Shown: positions 52,878 through 62,426 of the stretch, one piece after another
Layout of the letters: each line of letters opens with the position of its first letter
Numbering within the stretch: position 1 is the first letter of the stretch
Source: Actinomycetota bacterium
GTDB taxonomy: Bacteria; Actinomycetota; Thermoleophilia; Gaiellales; F1-60-MAGs149
Reading direction: 5' to 3'
Assembly (NCBI GenBank): GCA_009885805.1
Contig: VFJZ01000012.1
Coordinates: forward strand, 1-64,000
DNA: 64,000 nt
Made by a program: the position numbers and the translations under genes
Notes under the pieces: generated by a model
Database searches by the model: none
Told to the model about the DNA's origin: nothing
Seen by the model: the letters and a program-made list of their open reading frames with translations, nothing else

Positions 52878-54175
52878 GCGGGGACCTCCTCGGGTGCGGC
52901 GGGATGCACGTGCAGGGTCAGACCCTCGATGCGGTCGACGATGACGTCGCTGCCGGCGGGAATCGCGGCGGCGTCCGTGACCGCGCTCCACAGCTCGCCG
53001 CGGAGAAAGACCAGCCCGTCGGGGTCGAGCGACTCGCGCGCCTCCCCACGAAGTCCGATCAGGGTCGTAGTACCGGTCGCGGCGGGCAGGTGCCGGACCT
53101 GCGCGGTGCGTCTGATTGCGAACAGCAGTCCACCGCCGAGCAGGAGCGCCGCCGCGATCACGCCGGGCTTCCAGACAGCGTACGTCTCGTCGTCGAACAG
53201 GAGGATCGCACCGATCGCCAGGGCAGCTACGCCGGCCGCTCCGAGCGCGCCGTGGCCGACGAAGGCCTCGCCGACGACGAGTGCCATCCCCGCGGCGAGG
53301 AGGAGGATGCCGGCCCAGGTGAACGGCAGCACCGAGATGCCGAACAGCGCCACGATCACCATGCCGGCGCCGGCCGCGCCGGGCACGACGCCCCCGGGGT
53401 GCACGATCTCGAACGCGATCAGCGCTAGGCCGCCAATCAGCAGGAGGGCGATCAGATTGGGATCGATCAGGACGGCGAGGATCGCGAGGTGAACCGGTAG
53501 CTCGTGGGTGTCGACGGTCGCGCCCGTCACCTCGATCAGCTGACCCTTCGGGATCGTCCGGCGCCCGTCGACCTGGCGGAGCAGATCGCCGAGGTCGGTC
53601 GCCACGATCTCGATCACGCCGAGCGTGAGCGCTTCACGCGCGGTCGCGTTCGCGGCTTCGCGGACGGCCCGCTCCGCCCAGTCCGCGTTGCGGCCGTGTT
53701 CGGCGGCCATCGTCCGGATACGCGCGGCGGCGTCGTTGACGATCTTCCGCTTGAGGTCGCCCTCCCCGATGTCGCCACCGCCCGCAACCGGCGTCGAGGA
53801 GCCCACGTTGGTCTGCGGCGCCATCGCCGCGACGTCGCTCGCCATCAGCACGAACACGCCTGCGGAGGCGGCCCGCGCGCCGTCCGGCGACACGAACGCA
53901 ATCACGGGGATGTCGACGGCGAGTTGCGCGGCGTTGATCTCGCGCAGCGACCGGTCCGAGCCGCCGGGCGTGTCGATGCGCAGCACGACGGCAGCGTCAT
54001 CGCGTCGCGCGGCGGCCTCGATCTGACCGACCACGAATCGCGCCGACACCGGGTCGATGGCGCGGTCGAGGACGACCACCCGCACGACCGGCGCCGCGGC
54101 GGCGGGTGGCGTGGCGGCGCCGGCGAGGGTCATCGCCGCAAGAAGGATCAGGCCGATCCAGGAGCCGCGGTGCAT
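52874..54175 (-). CDS. NfeD-family protein with ClpP-class serine protease domain
   Basis: A 433-residue protein of the long NfeD (1b) type. A signal peptide ([21 protein letters not shown]) precedes a ClpP/SppA-like protease domain with Ser in [15 protein letters not shown] and Lys in [18 protein letters not shown] four- to five-helix membrane region follows ([21 protein letters not shown] to IRRTAQ), then the C-terminal OB-fold NfeD domain ([25 protein letters not shown]). It is coupled to the SPFH gene by a 4-bp overlap and likely cleaves or organises it. Confidence 0.92.
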
Positions 54176-54232
54176 GGCGTGCAGACCAGTCTACGAGATC
54201 GGGAGGGCTCATGTCCGTGGCAGAATGCACCG

Positions 54233-56437
54233 ATGGTGGAGTCCGTGGCCCGCCCGCTCTACCGCCTCGCCCTCGTTGTCGGTCTCGCGCTCCTGGCCGT
54301 TCCCGCCCCGGCAGCGGCCGGCGGCTCGGTCCGCCGCGTCGCCGTGCCGCTCACCGTCACCGGTCAGGCAGGCGGGTGGACGGTGCTGCGGAGCGCCGCC
54401 GTCCCCGGCGGTTTCTCGCTCGTCGGCCTACACTGGCGCGGTGCGAAGAGTGCGCGCCTCGCCGTGCGGACGGCGACGGCTGCGGGCCGGTTCGGGCCGT
54501 GGCGGGAACTCGACCGTCTCGCCGGCGAGACCGTCGTCGGCGCGCCCTACGTGACCGATCCGCTCTGGGCCGGCCGCGCCGCGCGGATCCAGGTGCGCCT
54601 CCGGGGCCGCGTCCAGCGCATCACCGCCATCACCGTGCTCCCGGGTCCGGATCCGACCCTGCAGGCGGTGAAGGCACTGGCCGCCGCACCGGACCAGCCC
54701 GAGATCCTGCCGCGCACGGCCTGGGGCGCGGACGAATCGTTGCGCACCGCCGAGCCGGTGATCGCCGGCCGTCTCCAGGCCGCGGTGATCCATCACACGG
54801 CAACGCCGAACGGCTATGACGCGGCGCAGGCACCGAGGATCGTGCGCTCGATCTACCTCTACCACGTCCGCGGGAACGGCTGGTCTGATATCGGTTACAA
54901 CTTTCTGGTCGACGCGCAGGGGCGTGTCTACGAGGGGCGTTTCGGCGGTGTCGGCCAGAACGTCGTCGGCGCCCACACCGAGGGATTCAATCGCGGGACG
55001 GTCGGGGTCGCCCTGATCGGCGACTTCGATCGCGTCGCGCCGTCAGCGGCTCAGCGGTCGGCGCTCGAGCGCCTGCTCGCGTGGCGCCTCGACGTCGGGC
55101 ATGTCGATCCGGCGGGCCAGGTGACGCTGGTGTCAGAGGGCGGCGGGAAGTTCGCCAAGGGGCGGTCGGTCGAGTTCCCGACGATCCTCGGTCACCGCGA
55201 CGCCTACAAGACGACCTGCCCGGGGCAGGCGGCGTACGGCCTGCTCGCCGACATCCGCACAAACGCCGCGAAGGGCGGTCCGCGCATCCTCGAACCATCC
55301 GTCGAGCCGCCGCAGATCGCCGCGCCGTTCCAGGCGATCCGGTTCCGCGCCCGGCTCTCGAAGGCGGCGCCGTGGAAGGTGACGGTCGCGACGACCGCCG
55401 GTGCCGCCGTCGCCGCGATCACCGGTTCGGGGGCCGCGGTCGACGCAGTCTGGACCGGTACGGTGGCCGGCGGCGGTCCGCTGCCGAAGCCGTCGCTGCT
55501 GGTCTGGCGGATCACGACTGCTGGTGCGAGAACTGCCGAGGGCTCGTTCGACGGCTCCGTTGGAGGTCAGACGCCGACGCCGTCGCCGTCGCCACCGTCG
55601 ACTGCCGTCGCCGCCGTCGTCTCGGCTCCGGCGGCCCTGGTCGCCGATTCGCCAGGGAAGTTGACGTGGCAGCAGGTGACGCGCGGGCTCGTCCGCGTCA
55701 CGGTAACGACGGCAGCCGGCGCCGAGATCGCGGTTCTCCGCGAGACGGCACCCGCGGCGGTCGGGACCCATGAGGTGACCTGGCCGGGCCTCGTCGCGAG
55801 CGGGCATTACCGATATCTGATCCGCGTGCAGCCGGACGGTTCGAGCACCGTCGACTCGGTTACCGCCGACGTCGATGTCCGCCGTCAGGCGAGCGGCCTG
55901 CGCGCGCCCGCAGGCGTCTCGCCGAACGGCGACGGTCTGGCGGACGCGGCGACGATCGAGTTCGTGCGCGCGGAGGCCGGCGACGCCCAGGTGCGCCTGC
56001 TGCGAGCGGGGAAGCTCGTCAAGAACGTCGCGCTGCTGTACGACCAGGCACCGGGTCCGTTCACGTACCAGTGGGCGCCACGCGGCCTCCGCGACGGCCG
56101 CTATGAACTCCAGCTGCTCGTTCCCGGCGGCGGCGGTCCCGTCGAGTTCCGGGCGCCGATCCGGCTGGACACCGTCGGCCCGGCGGTCCGGCTGCGAAAG
56201 GTCCGGGCAGTGAGCCCGCGGAAAGGCCTGGTTGTCTTCGTCCGCGTGACCGAGGCCGGCACCGTCGAGATCCGGCGGGGAGCGACCGTGCTGCGGACCG
56301 TGACCGCGAAGAAGGGCGTCGTGCGGATCACCCTGGAACGCGCCCTGGTGGGCACCGCGCGGACGCTGACCGCGGTCGCGCGCGACGGGCTCGGCAACGC
56401 CTCCAGGCGCCCAGCGACGATTCGCGTGCCCGGCTGA
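54233..56437 (+). CDS. Secreted N-acetylmuramoyl-L-alanine amidase (PGRP/Amidase_2) with C-terminal repeats
   Basis: A 734-residue exported peptidoglycan hydrolase. A signal peptide (RLALVVGLALLAVPAPAAAGG) leads to an N-terminal beta region, then an Amidase_2/PGRP domain at about 155-340 with zinc ligands in AAVIHHTATPNGYD, VVGAHTEGFNRGTVGVALIGD and the Cys/His near ILGHRDAYKTTCPG. Three Ig/FlgD-like C-terminal segments follow (e.g. VSPNGDGLADAATIEF, FLgD-like EFVRAEAGDAQVRLLRAGK), probably for wall binding. It is divergent from nfeD with a 57-bp spacer. The long frame upstream is antisense to nfeD and not real. Confidence 0.9.
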   Translation: MVESVARPLYRLALVVGLALLAVPAPAAAGGSVRRVAVPLTVTGQAGGWTVLRSAAVPGGFSLVGLHWRGAKSARLAVRTATAAGRFGPWRELDRLAGETVVGAPYVTDPLWAGRAARIQVRLRGRVQRITAITVLPGPDPTLQAVKALAAAPDQPEILPRTAWGADESLRTAEPVIAGRLQAAVIHHTATPNGYDAAQAPRIVRSIYLYHVRGNGWSDIGYNFLVDAQGRVYEGRFGGVGQNVVGAHTEGFNRGTVGVALIGDFDRVAPSAAQRSALERLLAWRLDVGHVDPAGQVTLVSEGGGKFAKGRSVEFPTILGHRDAYKTTCPGQAAYGLLADIRTNAAKGGPRILEPSVEPPQIAAPFQAIRFRARLSKAAPWKVTVATTAGAAVAAITGSGAAVDAVWTGTVAGGGPLPKPSLLVWRITTAGARTAEGSFDGSVGGQTPTPSPSPPSTAVAAVVSAPAALVADSPGKLTWQQVTRGLVRVTVTTAAGAEIAVLRETAPAAVGTHEVTWPGLVASGHYRYLIRVQPDGSSTVDSVTADVDVRRQASGLRAPAGVSPNGDGLADAATIEFVRAEAGDAQVRLLRAGKLVKNVALLYDQAPGPFTYQWAPRGLRDGRYELQLLVPGGGGPVEFRAPIRLDTVGPAVRLRKVRAVSPRKGLVVFVRVTEAGTVEIRRGATVLRTVTAKKGVVRITLERALVGTARTLTAVARDGLGNASRRPATIRVPG

Positions 56438-56439
56438 CG

Positions 56440-57858
56440 TCAGGTCCCCGGCTGGCGCGGCGGCGCGATTCGCGCGTCCTCCGGGACGCTTCCGTCGATT
56501 GCCTGCCGTAGCTCGTCCCCACCGCGGAACTCGTCGCAGCGCAGTTCGATCCGGGTGCCGTCGTCGGCCAGCAGCAGGCGCGAGTCGCCCGACTGCACGA
56601 CGATTGCACGAGCCAGGGCGACGCGCGTACGACTGGAGCCGCCGAGCAGATAGACGGCGTCGTCGGTGACGACGACCCGTTCGCGTGCCGGCCGGCCGCG
56701 TCGTCGCCACGTTCGGCCGCCGACCGGGTCGCGGAAGGTCGGTGCGGCTGGGGTCCAGAATCCTTCCGGAGGGTCGAGTACCGGGTCCGAGCTGACGATC
56801 ATCGTCGGGCAGGCGTGGGCGAGAGCCGCGACGATGTCGCGCCCGCTCCGGGCGCGGAGATCCTCCAGCCGCTGGGCGGCGAGCCGCGGCTCGAGACCGT
56901 CGAGCTCCATCTCCGCGACGGTGCGGAGCCGCTCGCCCGGGTCAACCGCGTGGATGACCCGTTCCCGCTCGATCCGGTCGCGTTCGAGCTCGGCCGCGCT
57001 CGGGCCATCGCCCGCCATCTGCTCGACCATTTCGATCAGGGCCGCGCGGACGACCGCCGACGCGTGTTGGCCACACCCCGCGGCGATCAACGCGTGCGCC
57101 TGCGCGGCGAGCTCGAGACAATCGGCGCCGGCTTCGACGACGCCGTGGCCCCCGAACAGCAGCTGGGTGGCCCGCCCATCGAGTATCCGCACGGCGGCGC
57201 GGAAGTCCGCCGAGCGCGGGCCGAGGAACGTGACCGTGGCGCCGTTGCCGCCGAGGCCGAGGCTGGTCCGGTCGTGCTGGTGGCTGAGCGGCGGGTCGCG
57301 GCGCGGGTGACGCGCTCCGGCGGCCAGCGGCAGGGTCATGTCGTCGGGTGTCCCGTGGGTGATCAGGACGGCGTTGGCGCGCGTGAAGCACCGGTTGGCC
57401 CAGTCGCGCACGTCGGCGCCGCCGAGTCGGCGGAGGCCGAACTCCTCGAGCCCGAGACCGCCCGGTCCGCGGAGGCCGAAGCGGTAGGTGAGGATCTCCT
57501 CGGCCGCCGAGACCGCCGATCCGGCTGTCAGCTCCTGGAGCTCGTCGCGGGCCTGCTCGAGGCGGTCGAGCGGAAGCTCGCGCAATGCGTGGCAGACACG
57601 GGCCACGAACCCCGTCACGGCAGCCCGCTCACCGGCAGCGGCGAACACCGTGTGGTACTGCTCTACTCGCCCTTCGGCGTCCAGTCCCGCCTGACGTGCC
57701 GCGCTGGTCACGAGGTGCTCGACGAGGTGCGTGATCCCCCTTATCGCCGGTGTCTCGTCGGCCACGCCGACGCGAAAGACGAGGCCGGCGGCGAAGTCTC
57801 CCGACCACTCCTCCCACCAGACGGGGACGTCGTCGATGACGCCGCGGCGTTCGCTCAT
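56440..57858 (-). CDS. M16-like zinc peptidase (pitrilysin family)
   Basis: A 472-residue protein with the inverted zinc motif HLVEH at residues 44-48 (GITHLVEHLV) and a candidate third ligand E120/E121 (AVSAAEEILTYRFG), about 73 residues later, as in M16 peptidases. Two half-domains follow with the usual alpha/beta pattern; the C-terminal 80 residues (RVVVTDDAVYLLGG, RLLLADDGTRIELRCDEF) look like a PH-type or other beta domain. It is the last gene of an operon after a CbbX-like AAA+ ATPase and a J-like protein, overlapping the latter by 4 bp. Confidence 0.8.
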   Translation of the reverse strand: MSERRGVIDDVPVWWEEWSGDFAAGLVFRVGVADETPAIRGITHLVEHLVTSAARQAGLDAEGRVEQYHTVFAAAGERAAVTGFVARVCHALRELPLDRLEQARDELQELTAGSAVSAAEEILTYRFGLRGPGGLGLEEFGLRRLGGADVRDWANRCFTRANAVLITHGTPDDMTLPLAAGARHPRRDPPLSHQHDRTSLGLGGNGATVTFLGPRSADFRAAVRILDGRATQLLFGGHGVVEAGADCLELAAQAHALIAAGCGQHASAVVRAALIEMVEQMAGDGPSAAELERDRIERERVIHAVDPGERLRTVAEMELDGLEPRLAAQRLEDLRARSGRDIVAALAHACPTMIVSSDPVLDPPEGFWTPAAPTFRDPVGGRTWRRRGRPARERVVVTDDAVYLLGGSSRTRVALARAIVVQSGDSRLLLADDGTRIELRCDEFRGGDELRQAIDGSVPEDARIAPPRQPGT

Positions 57859-58052
57859 CGGGCGGGTGTCAGGGCGCGCCAGGCTTCGACCAGCTCGGCC
57901 CAGCTGGCCAGGTCGTCCGACCGGTCGTCGGCATGCGCGCCGATCAGGCGCGGCGACACCTCCTCCAGACGCCGGCGGAACGCCGCCGCGCAGTCGGCAA
58001 TCGTCGCTCCTTCGGGGAGGCCGAGCACCGCGTACGGCGAGCGGGCGCTCAC
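57855..58052 (-). CDS. Small J-domain-like protein lacking HPD
   Basis: A 65-residue protein. It starts like a DnaJ domain (SPYAVLGLPEGATIADCAAAFRRR) and ends with the helix-3-like SWAELVEAWRALT, but the middle lacks the HPD tripeptide needed to stimulate DnaK. It may be a degenerate J-like adaptor. The gene overlaps the AAA+ ATPase gene and the M16 gene by 4 bp each, so the three are made in equal amounts and are likely partners. Confidence 0.65.
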   Translation of the reverse strand: MSARSPYAVLGLPEGATIADCAAAFRRRLEEVSPRLIGAHADDRSDDLASWAELVEAWRALTPAR

Positions 58053-59503
58053 CGCGCCGCCTCCGAGCGGAGGGCAGCCTCGGCAGCTCGATCGATGTCG
58101 ACCGGCGAGATCAGTTCGAGGTCGCGATCACTCGGCGACCGCTTGCCGGCGACCCGATCGGCGTGCGCGAGGACCGCGTCCTCGAAGAGATTGCGCACGG
58201 CGCGGGCGTTGCCGAACGAGCGGTCGCGCGCGTCGTGGAGGGCGACGAGGACCTCGCGCGCCCGCCGTCGCGCAGCCGCCGACAGGTCGTACCCGCCCTT
58301 CCGCACGATCAGCTGCATGATCTCGACCAGCTCGTCGGGCGTGTAGTGCGGGAAGTCGAGGGTCTCGTTGAAGCGGCTCGCGAGACCGGGATTGGAGCCG
58401 AGCAGACGCGCCATCTCGTCGGGGTAGCCGGCGACGATGACCACGAGGCGACCACGGTCGTCCTCCATCCGCTTGAGAAGCGCCTCCAGCGCCTCGCGGC
58501 CGAAGTCGTTACCGGCGTTCTCCGGCGCCAGCGTGTAGGCCTCGTCGATGAACAGGACGCCGCCGATCGCGCGGTCGATCGCGGCGGCGGTCTTCGGAGC
58601 AGTCTGCCCCACGTACTCGGCGACGAGGTCCTGGCGAGCGACTTCGACAAGATGGCCGCTGGCCAGCAGCCCGAGGGAGCCGAAAATCTCGGCCACGAGG
58701 CGGGCGACGGTTGTCTTGCCGGTGCCCGGCGGGCCCGTGAAGACCATGTGGTGCGACAGCGGCGGGTTCGACATCCCGCGCTCCTCGCGCTTCCGCCGCA
58801 CGGCGAGGAGGTTCGTCAGCGATCGAACGTATGCCTTCGCAGACGTCAGGCCGACGAGTTCGTCGAGCTCGGTCAGGATCTCGTCGATCGGCCGCAGTGC
58901 CGGCGGTGGCGGAGCAGTCGCGGCCGGACGCCGGCCGTCATTCGCGACGGGCGCGCGGACCGGCGCCGCCGGATCGGCGACCTGATCGCGCAACGCACCA
59001 CGCTCGACCACCTCCGCGATGACCGTCTCGCGAAGCAACGCGATGCCGGGGTAGGTGCGAGCGAGGTTACGGGCCTCGAGGTGCTCGTAGCCGTCGTCGA
59101 CCCGTTCGAGCATCGCCAGGTACTCGGCGGCCTTGCCGCCCGGGTCGCGCGCGAGCTCCGCGTCAACGGCGTCGCGGAGGGTGCGGGCGAGTCCGGGCAC
59201 CCTATCGGCGGCACCCTGGCGCAGCAGTCCGGCGAGCTCGTAAAGGCCGATCATCACCCCGACCGCGGTGCCGAGGGACTCGTCGAGCGCAGCTGGCCGT
59301 CCCCCCGGCGTCGTCGCCGCGATCCGTGCGACGCGGTCCGCAGCCTTGTCGAGGTCGCTCGCCCGTTCGGCACCGGCGCCGCCGACCGTGCAGATCACAC
59401 CGAGCACATCGCGGGCGGGCCGCCAGGCCTCGTCCGCGAGCCGCTCGCGGACGAGGGCGATCGCGAGCGTCTGCGAGTGGTCGTCGGCGGCGAAGCGGTA
59501 CAC
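58049..59503 (-). CDS. AAA+ ATPase of the CbbX/SpoVK/EccA type
   Basis: A 484-residue ATPase. Residues 1-200 are helical with no recognised family, and 180-205 form a Pro-rich linker. The AAA+ domain has Walker A TGPPGTGKTT (about 256-265), Walker B GVLFIDEAYTL (about 315-325), the pore-like loop AEYVGQTAPKT and sensor region RSFGNARAVRNLFEDAV. CbbX proteins remodel Rubisco, while EccA acts in type VII secretion; neither partner is seen here. It is followed by a J-like protein and an M16 peptidase, and preceded by BioD-like and biotin ligase genes. Confidence 0.85.
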   Translation of the reverse strand: MYRFAADDHSQTLAIALVRERLADEAWRPARDVLGVICTVGGAGAERASDLDKAADRVARIAATTPGGRPAALDESLGTAVGVMIGLYELAGLLRQGAADRVPGLARTLRDAVDAELARDPGGKAAEYLAMLERVDDGYEHLEARNLARTYPGIALLRETVIAEVVERGALRDQVADPAAPVRAPVANDGRRPAATAPPPPALRPIDEILTELDELVGLTSAKAYVRSLTNLLAVRRKREERGMSNPPLSHHMVFTGPPGTGKTTVARLVAEIFGSLGLLASGHLVEVARQDLVAEYVGQTAPKTAAAIDRAIGGVLFIDEAYTLAPENAGNDFGREALEALLKRMEDDRGRLVVIVAGYPDEMARLLGSNPGLASRFNETLDFPHYTPDELVEIMQLIVRKGGYDLSAAARRRAREVLVALHDARDRSFGNARAVRNLFEDAVLAHADRVAGKRSPSDRDLELISPVDIDRAAEAALRSEAAR

Positions 59504-59509
59504 GGGCGG

Positions 59510-60109
59510 TCAGACGACGGTGACGGCCTCGCCGGCGACCGATTCGACGACGATCGCCAGCGCGGCAAGTTCGGCACGGGTCGTTCGCTCGGCGAGATCC
59601 GGCCGGTGTGCGCAGCCCGTGACCGCGATCCCGGCGACGGCCAGACCGCGCGTCCGCGCGACCTCTACCGTCAGCGCCACGACCCCGAGCGAGGTCGTGT
59701 CGGGGCGGGTGACGATCACGATCGGCAGGCCGACCGCATGGGCGAGGTCGGCGTAGGTCGTGCCGTCACCCAGCGGCTCGAGCAGCGAGCCGGCTTCGAT
59801 CACGATGCCGTCCGTGGCAGCACGGAGCTCCTCGGTGGCGTCGATCAGGTGCTGCACGTCAGGAGGACCCGCGTGCTGGAGGCGCGCGGCGACTGCCGGC
59901 GCGAGCGGCGCAACGAACCGGTACGCGGTCGCACAGACGGTCCCGGGCGCGCCGGCCGCAACCGCGCGGGCGTCGTCCGTCGAGCCGGTCTGAACCGCCT
60001 TCAGGTACCCGGGTGTCCGACCCTTCGCCAGCGCCCGCGACGCGTAGAGGATAGCCAGACGAGTCTTGCCGACGCCGACGCCGGTGCCGATCAGCAGCAC
60101 GTCGATCAC
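59510..60109 (-). CDS. bioD: Dethiobiotin synthetase-like protein (BioD)
   Basis: A 199-residue P-loop enzyme that closes the ureido ring of dethiobiotin from 7,8-diaminopelargonate. Walker A reads LIGTGVGVGKTRLAILYA and the substrate loop KAVQTGSTDDARA. The GAGG-type loop reads IEAGSLLEPLGDG, where canonical BioD has EGAGGLLVP, so there is some divergence. The C-terminal nucleotide region has VTGCAHRPDLAE. It is encoded 33 bp after the biotin ligase gene, supporting a biotin role, though bioA, bioB and bioF are not in the window. Confidence 0.8.
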   Translation of the reverse strand: MIDVLLIGTGVGVGKTRLAILYASRALAKGRTPGYLKAVQTGSTDDARAVAAGAPGTVCATAYRFVAPLAPAVAARLQHAGPPDVQHLIDATEELRAATDGIVIEAGSLLEPLGDGTTYADLAHAVGLPIVIVTRPDTTSLGVVALTVEVARTRGLAVAGIAVTGCAHRPDLAERTTRAELAALAIVVESVAGEAVTVV

Positions 60110-60142
60110 GCGGCGCTCCGACCACGCCGGGCGGTCCGGCGA

Positions 60143-60883
60143 TCAGACAACGCGCACGACCTCGCCGGCGTCGACACGCCGGTCCTCGTCGCCCACCGCG
60201 ACGACGAGCCGCCCGCTTTCGTCGACGCCAGCGGCCAGCCCGACGAGCAGCTCGTCGCCGAGTTGCACCTCGACCTCGCGGCCGGCGAGATCGTCGAGGG
60301 CGCGGAAACGATCGAACAGCGCGCTGAAGCCGAGCTCCTCCCACTCGCGGTAGGCGGCCTGGAGCCGTGTCGTGACAGCGAGGAGGAGCGTCAGTCGGTC
60401 GTGTCGCTCGCCCGTCTCGACGAGCAGCGACGTCGCAGGCAGACGATCGGTGGCCGGCAGTTTCGCGGCGGCGATGTTCACGTTGATGCCAATGCCGAGC
60501 ACGACGTACGGATCGCCGCGGGCTGGCGTCTCGAGCTCGGCGAGGATTCCCGCCACCTTCGCGCCGCCGATCACCACGTCGTTCGGCCAGCGCAGGCGCG
60601 CCGCAATCGGCAGCGCCTCGGCGACGGCGATGCCCGCGACCAGCGCCAGGGGCGCCAGCGAGTCGACCGGGACGTCCGGTCGCAGCAGCAGCGACAGCAT
60701 CAGGGACTCGCCCGGCTCGTCGGCCCAGGTGCGTCCGCGGCGACCGCGGCCGGCGGTCTGGTGGTCGGCGACGGCGATGAATCCCTCGGGCCCGAGCGTC
60801 CCGGCGACGGCTCTGACGATGTCCTGCGTCGAGGTGCAATCCGGCAACACGGAGGCCAGCTGGCCGAAGCGCGCGCTGGTCAT
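60143..60883 (-). CDS. birA: Biotin-[acetyl-CoA-carboxylase] ligase (BirA catalytic type)
   Basis: A 246-residue enzyme that joins biotin to the lysine of biotin carboxyl carrier proteins. It has no N-terminal repressor domain. The biotinyl-AMP loop reads AGRGRRGRTWADEPGESL, and other conserved parts are CTSTQDIVRAV, RLRWPNDVVIGGAKVAGIL and VLGIGINVNIA. The C-terminal SH3-like domain ends AGEVVRVV. It is divergent from the fabZ operon (129-bp spacer), a natural partner since biotin enables acetyl-CoA carboxylase for fatty-acid synthesis. Confidence 0.93.
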   Translation of the reverse strand: MTSARFGQLASVLPDCTSTQDIVRAVAGTLGPEGFIAVADHQTAGRGRRGRTWADEPGESLMLSLLLRPDVPVDSLAPLALVAGIAVAEALPIAARLRWPNDVVIGGAKVAGILAELETPARGDPYVVLGIGINVNIAAAKLPATDRLPATSLLVETGERHDRLTLLLAVTTRLQAAYREWEELGFSALFDRFRALDDLAGREVEVQLGDELLVGLAAGVDESGRLVVAVGDEDRRVDAGEVVRVV

Positions 60884-60887
60884 GGGG

Positions 60888-60916
60888 TTCGGAGGGCGCA
60901 CCACGTCGCCTACAAT
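60888..60916 (+). promoter_or_regulatory. Promoter candidate for the fab operon
   Basis: TTCGGA (60888-60893) and TACAAT (60911-60916) are separated by 17 bp in the birA-fabZ spacer; the leader to fabZ would be about 90 nt. No FapR-type operator was seen. The birA promoter must overlap the same region on the other strand. Confidence 0.5.
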
Positions 60917-61012
60917 AGCGGCCCGAATGCGCCGCACCCGATCCGTCAGCGCCGCCGCCCGGGCCGACGCCCACGTCCCGCTGCCCGCCGTGCGAGGAGA
61001 CGGGCCGGCGTG

Positions 61013-61443
61013 ATGGACGGCACTGCCATCGAGGCGGTCATCCCACACCGGGCGCCATTCCGCTTCGTCGACGAGATCGTCGAGCTCGAGCCGGGCATAC
61101 GGGCCGTCGGCCGCTACGCGGTCAGCGGCAGTGAGTGGTACCTCGAGGGGCATTTCCCCGGGAATCCGATCGTGCCGGGCGTCATCATGGTCGAGGCAGC
61201 GGCACAGGTCGCGGCTGTCTGCGCGCTGACCCACCCCGACTACGCCGGCCGGTTCGGAGTCTTCGCCGCCATCGACGAGACGCGCTTCTCGCGCATCGTC
61301 CGGCCGGGCGACGAGTTGACGATCCGGGTCGAGATGTTGCGGCTCCGGTTGCGCCTCGGGCGCTGCAGCGCCGAGATCGCTGTCGCCGACGAGATCGCCG
61401 TCCGGGCCACCCTGACGTTCGGTCTCCTCGAGGAACCGCCGGC

Positions 61444-61447
<4 letters not shown>
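61013..61447 (+). CDS. fabZ: 3-hydroxyacyl-ACP dehydratase FabZ
   Basis: A 144-residue hot-dog-fold dehydratase making trans-2-enoyl-ACP. Conserved features: IPHRAPFRFVDEIVELEPG at the start, the catalytic His in YLEGHFPGNPIVPGVIMVEA, and IDETRFSRIVRPGDEL. The ATG at 61013 is used; a GTG one codon earlier has better spacing to GAGGAGA. It is coupled to fabH by a 4-bp overlap, the head of fabZ-fabH-fabD-fabG. Confidence 0.93.

Positions 61448-62426
<979 letters not shown>

Follow-up and report, generated by a model that had tools for sequence, protein, structure and literature searches.

On the minus strand of the window (the whole stretch of 64,000 nucleotides that was analysed, with a GC content of ~71%), five genes follow one another head to tail in the order birA, bioD, ATPase, J-like, M16-like, the last three of which form the trio considered here:

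60143..60892 (−), birA, biotin-protein ligase, start approximate; context, outside the trio
59510..60109 (−), bioD (BioD model 77 bits, AAA_26 79 bits); context, outside the trio
58049..59503 (−), ATPase gene, SpoVK/CbbX/EccA group, 484 aa, GTG start (open reading frame, translation and profile matches)
57855..58052 (−), J-like gene, 65 aa, GTG start (weak DnaJ match, predicted J fold)
56440..57858 (−), M16-like gene, 472 aa, ATG start (weak Pfam M16 match, probably a pseudo-peptidase)

The initial annotation described the trio as a tight unit with 4-bp overlaps, and both the open reading frames and the overlaps were confirmed: the two junctions read GTGA and ATGA, such that the J-like gene overlaps its neighbours by 4 bp at either end. 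In all three reading frames, the GC content is coding-like, at 0.86-0.87 in the third codon position and 0.50-0.61 in the second. Because 4-bp overlaps are also present between other genes of the window (some of these gene calls being rough), they say little about whether the trio is a functional set.

The biotin genes reported upstream are likewise in place, and their link to the trio is purely positional: 6 bp separate the bioD stop from the ATPase start, and a gap of 33 bp separates birA from bioD. The birA_ligase match (166.5 bits) corresponds to the C-terminal part of an open reading frame at 60143-61762. Judging by the spacing, birA, bioD and the trio may form five genes on one transcript; a promoter and terminator scan of positions 56000-61400 found none. 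Divergent to this unit is a fatty-acid/acetyl-CoA carboxylase cluster consisting of fabH, fabD, a fabG-like gene (assigned by our own inspection of the sequence), a ketoacyl synthase gene, accD and accA. The convergent neighbour of the trio (window positions 53504-56437, +) encodes an N-acetylmuramoyl-L-alanine amidase that carries an Ig-like domain of FlgD type, and 2 bp lie between the end of its open reading frame and the M16-like stop.

The ATPase

Two parts of the ATPase were distinguished:

58904..59503 (−), residues 1-200, the N-terminal region, assigned to no known family
58094..58888 (−), residues 206-470, the AAA module with its lid, containing Walker A, Walker B and the pore-loop motif

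The protein matches the Pfam families AAA (residues 253-364, 67 bits) and AAA_lid_6 (residues 410-470, 57 bits). Among the named models, it scores 274.7 bits with SpoVK, 252.7 bits with EccA (cut-off 466.7 bits) and 246 bits with CbbX (cut-off 459 bits), under the cut-off in all three cases, and the nearest solved structures are those of EccA1 and CbbX. The Walker A and Walker B motifs, the pore loop (LVAEYVGQTAPKT) and AGY at residues 358-360 are intact, and Asn371, within NPGLASR, corresponds to the conserved Asn that precedes the Arg fingers. A Tyr in the GY signature at sensor 1 and this Asn are the hallmarks of the SpoVK/CbbX/EccA group (PMC10659427). By its AAA and AAA_lid_6 domains, GY signature and conserved Asn, all read from the sequence, the ATPase is a member of this AAA+ group; profile matches, named models and nearest structures agree in this respect with the CbbX/EccA-type assignment made initially.

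The ATPases of this group are described as dedicated chaperones that recruit through N-terminal domains of varied kinds (PMC10659427). The window ATPase resembles them in the AAA module and lid, Walker A, Walker B, AGY, the pore loop and a variable N-terminal region, but differs in staying under all three model cut-offs, in an N-terminal region without relatives and in the first Arg finger, where NPGLASR has Ala in place of the Arg of most relatives; the same replacement is seen in the G055 protein and in one Streptomyces protein. The G055 protein is also the nearest row in a tree of AAA modules (51% identity), in which many forks are open and the placement of the ATPase is not firm. CbbX proper, the RuBisCO activase, was rejected given the low score; moreover, the genome has no RuBisCO large subunit, so the window ATPase is not a RuBisCO activase. 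EccA proper, of type VII secretion, was rejected on its score as well, and no type VII secretion genes lie next to the trio.

The N-terminal region of ~200 residues, called unrecognised in the initial annotation, retains that description: residues 1-200 match no Pfam family, and a search for relatives in 299 genomes of the class returned marginal matches only. The structural model of this region is helical, with pLDDT under 50 and no nameable fold. Plasmid relatives of the ATPase cover the AAA part only.

The J-like protein

The 65-aa protein scores 17.6 bits against Pfam DnaJ (cut-off 27.8). Its single-sequence model (mean pLDDT 84.8) has helices at residues 6-10, 18-38 and 41-61; the top of the Foldseek list consists almost entirely of J domains (E-values 0.03 and up, probability near 1), and structural realignment with VIA-align again puts J domains on top (Z 9.1, rmsd 2.2, 62 residues aligned). 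Helical folds easily reach middling Z values, and these structural matches are to be taken as support rather than proof. The protein is predicted to adopt a J fold over its whole length, and the original family assignment is upheld by this prediction together with the weak DnaJ score.

J domains carry an HPD motif between helices II and III, and without it the usual stimulation of Hsp70 is unexpected. Here, SPR occupies the HPD position, so the motif is absent as first described, and the J-like protein is not expected to stimulate Hsp70 in the usual manner. The protein shares the three-helix J fold, predicted for all 65 residues, with HPD-less J-fold proteins; it differs from them in being the bare fold alone, with SPR for HPD, encoded between an AAA+ gene and an M16-like gene.

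The M16-like protein and its active site

The M16-like protein scores 19.7 bits against Pfam M16 (cut-off 22.3). Residue counts were taken from an alignment with 35 M16-like relatives, 33 of which cover the C-lobe region, and three sites stand out:

57715..57729 (−), HLVEH, residues 44-48, first part of the zinc site; HxxEH kept, invariant in 35/35 relatives
57529..57531 (−), Leu110 at the position of the distal zinc-ligand Glu; Glu in 35/35 relatives
57133..57156 (−), C-lobe stretch 235-242, with Phe235 and Glu242 in place of the Arg and Tyr of the relatives

In all relatives, the motif (R/K)xILRTE has a Glu as its last residue, and the window protein has Leu110 in this column, which lies in a gap-free stretch of the alignment; in a profile alignment with a solved M16 processing protease (the family profile included one ordinary M16 sequence), the Leu110 column is that of the conserved Glu of the enzyme. 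Another Glu, also invariant in 35/35 relatives, is replaced by Ala103, and the Arg and Tyr of LRQxGGYSY, found in all 33 relatives that cover the region, are replaced by Phe235 and Glu242. A frameshift or sequencing slip was rejected as the source of these losses: the other frames do not restore the residues, and the codon-position GC stays high. Thus, the protein resembles the M16 peptidases (insulinase family) in the overall family profile and in HxxEH, but departs from them at the distal zinc ligand and in the C-lobe pair, and the peptidase that had been described as having an intact motif does not survive comparison with its relatives. Given the loss of the distal Glu and of the C-lobe Arg and Tyr, the protein probably retains the M16 shell without the activity, i.e. 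it is a pseudo-peptidase. Glu109 adjoins the lost ligand position and might still serve as a ligand, which leaves some doubt about inactivity.

Relatives of the M16-like protein were found in 60 genomes in all. They are present in 55 of the 395 genomes of a large-genome family that we infer, from genome size and gene content, to be Streptomycetaceae; within the same class, full-length relatives are encoded in G074 and G232, and G197 and G022 contribute fragments located where a contig ends; one further relative is in G424. No relatives were found on plasmids or in viral contigs. The relatives of the class at L061:9083-11122 and L060:6843-8774 have extra C-terminal domains, and that of one class relative gives a weak bacterial PH match (bPH_3, 20.5 bits). 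A J-like end on the G232 protein (ILSNPPQRDLYDA) was considered and rejected, the preceding stretch matching a bacterial PH domain instead. Two of the relatives checked from the large-genome family terminate in a hydrophobic helix.

Co-occurrence of the three genes

In the order, 52 of the 129 genomes sampled have a match to the ATPase (E up to 1e-20). Except for the window gene itself, these matches start at about residue 168, and none of the ATPases of the order (129 genomes) has the N-terminal region of the window ATPase. The neighbours of the ATPase genes vary between loci; no M16-like, M41-like or J-like neighbour was detected by motif at 20 loci with extended flanking sequence or at further loci for which less flanking sequence was read. 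Conversely, neither an AAA Walker A motif nor a J-like signature was detected in the flanks of 39 M16-like loci, which were read over 1.5 to 8 kb and in some cases truncated by the end of the contig; the J-like search pattern recovers the J-like gene of the window. G197 encodes both an M16-like protein and a SpoVK/CbbX/EccA-group ATPase, the two genes lying on different contigs.

Co-occurrence across genomes had been proposed as the test of the association, and the trio is not adjacent at any locus read outside this genome, with one genome representing the genus. The trio is known from one genome, the sole one of its genus sampled, which excludes a widespread conserved system and leaves room for a young one. 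A literature search found no paper joining these three families.

Possible roles of the gene set

We tentatively favour, at somewhat less than even chances, a lineage-specific gene set that is probably co-transcribed with birA-bioD and that, if its products cooperate, would combine a dedicated chaperone, a J-fold recruiter and a non-cutting M16 shell. The reading frames and their overlaps, the group membership of the ATPase, the lost M16 residues and the missing HPD are the observations behind this proposal, to which the predicted J fold is added. The three proteins would form a complex in which the N-terminal region of the ATPase and the HPD-less J-fold protein recruit a client; the ATPase hexamer would thread part of the client through its pore and thereby reshape it, and the M16-like protein would act as a non-cutting shell, either holding the client or being the client itself. 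Like co-transcription, complex formation, each of these roles and the absence of proteolysis are suppositions. If the trio cooperates, non-proteolytic remodelling is the more plausible activity, since the M16 partner probably has no catalytic function; the restriction of the set to a single genome counts against a joint function. That the locus represents a new chaperone make-up, in which the ATPase works with an HPD-less J-fold adaptor and an M16 pseudo-peptidase holding the client, the J fold being used without Hsp70, appears unlikely.

An accidental neighbourhood, in which functionally unrelated genes ended up downstream of bioD in a single lineage and have a transcript, but no task, in common, is nearly as likely as the cooperating chaperone set. 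The restriction to one genome, the other and varying neighbours of the ATPase and M16-like genes elsewhere, and the short overlaps elsewhere in the window are all consistent with accident; however, two successive 4-bp overlaps surround the small J-like gene, the coding signals are intact in all three genes, and no scatter is visible within the genus, represented by its one genome. The unfolding-plus-proteolysis machine of the initial annotation, with the ATPase unfolding, the J-like protein adapting and the M16-like protein cutting, is improbable. It could draw on the retained HxxEH and on the other ATPase of the group in the same genome, which is fused to an M41 zinc peptidase with HEAGH (see below), but the M16-like protein has lost the distal Glu and the C-lobe Arg and Tyr that are invariant among its relatives, which themselves occur without an adjoining ATPase. 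Furthermore, the ATPases of this group are described as chaperones for which no peptidase association is reported and no evidence of peptidase fusions or interactions was found (PMC10659427). No relative examined carries the three genes together, and the trio is therefore probably not a protein-shredding machine. Finally, the place of the trio between birA-bioD, directly upstream, and the divergent fatty-acid set (fabH, fabD, ketoacyl synthase, accD, accA) could indicate a chaperone unit for biotin-dependent or fatty-acid enzymes, and the link between EccA1 and mycolic-acid enzymes (PMC10659427) is compatible with such a function; with position as the sole connection, and with other neighbours beside the group's ATPases in the rest of the order, we regard this role, too, as improbable.

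Were the proteins of the favoured chaperone set to form a complex, they would extend a chaperone group for which descriptions to date mention no partner from a peptidase family, and would provide a case of a J fold being recruited by an ATPase that is not Hsp70. If they form none, the locus serves as a warning, because the protease machine hinted at by the overlaps and the visible HxxEH is contradicted by the remainder of the active site.

A second ATPase of the group fused to an M41 peptidase

A second ATPase of the group is encoded in the same genome (L047:5905-7929, equivalent to G000:C14:17904-19928). In this 674-aa protein, an N-terminal region of ~215 residues is combined with an AAA module of SpoVK/CbbX type and an M41 domain of FtsH type (100.5 bits), the latter containing the HEAGH motif. 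The fusion shows that a zinc peptidase can be linked to an AAA domain of the SpoVK/CbbX/EccA group, in contrast to the published description of the group, where no peptidase fusions are reported (PMC10659427). By hydropathy, the protein has no membrane span, and none of the plasmid records covers 80% of it. A gene that begins 27 bp after the fusion gene (L047:7957-8343) encodes a 128-aa protein that, while matching no Pfam family, resembles bacterial PH domains by eye.
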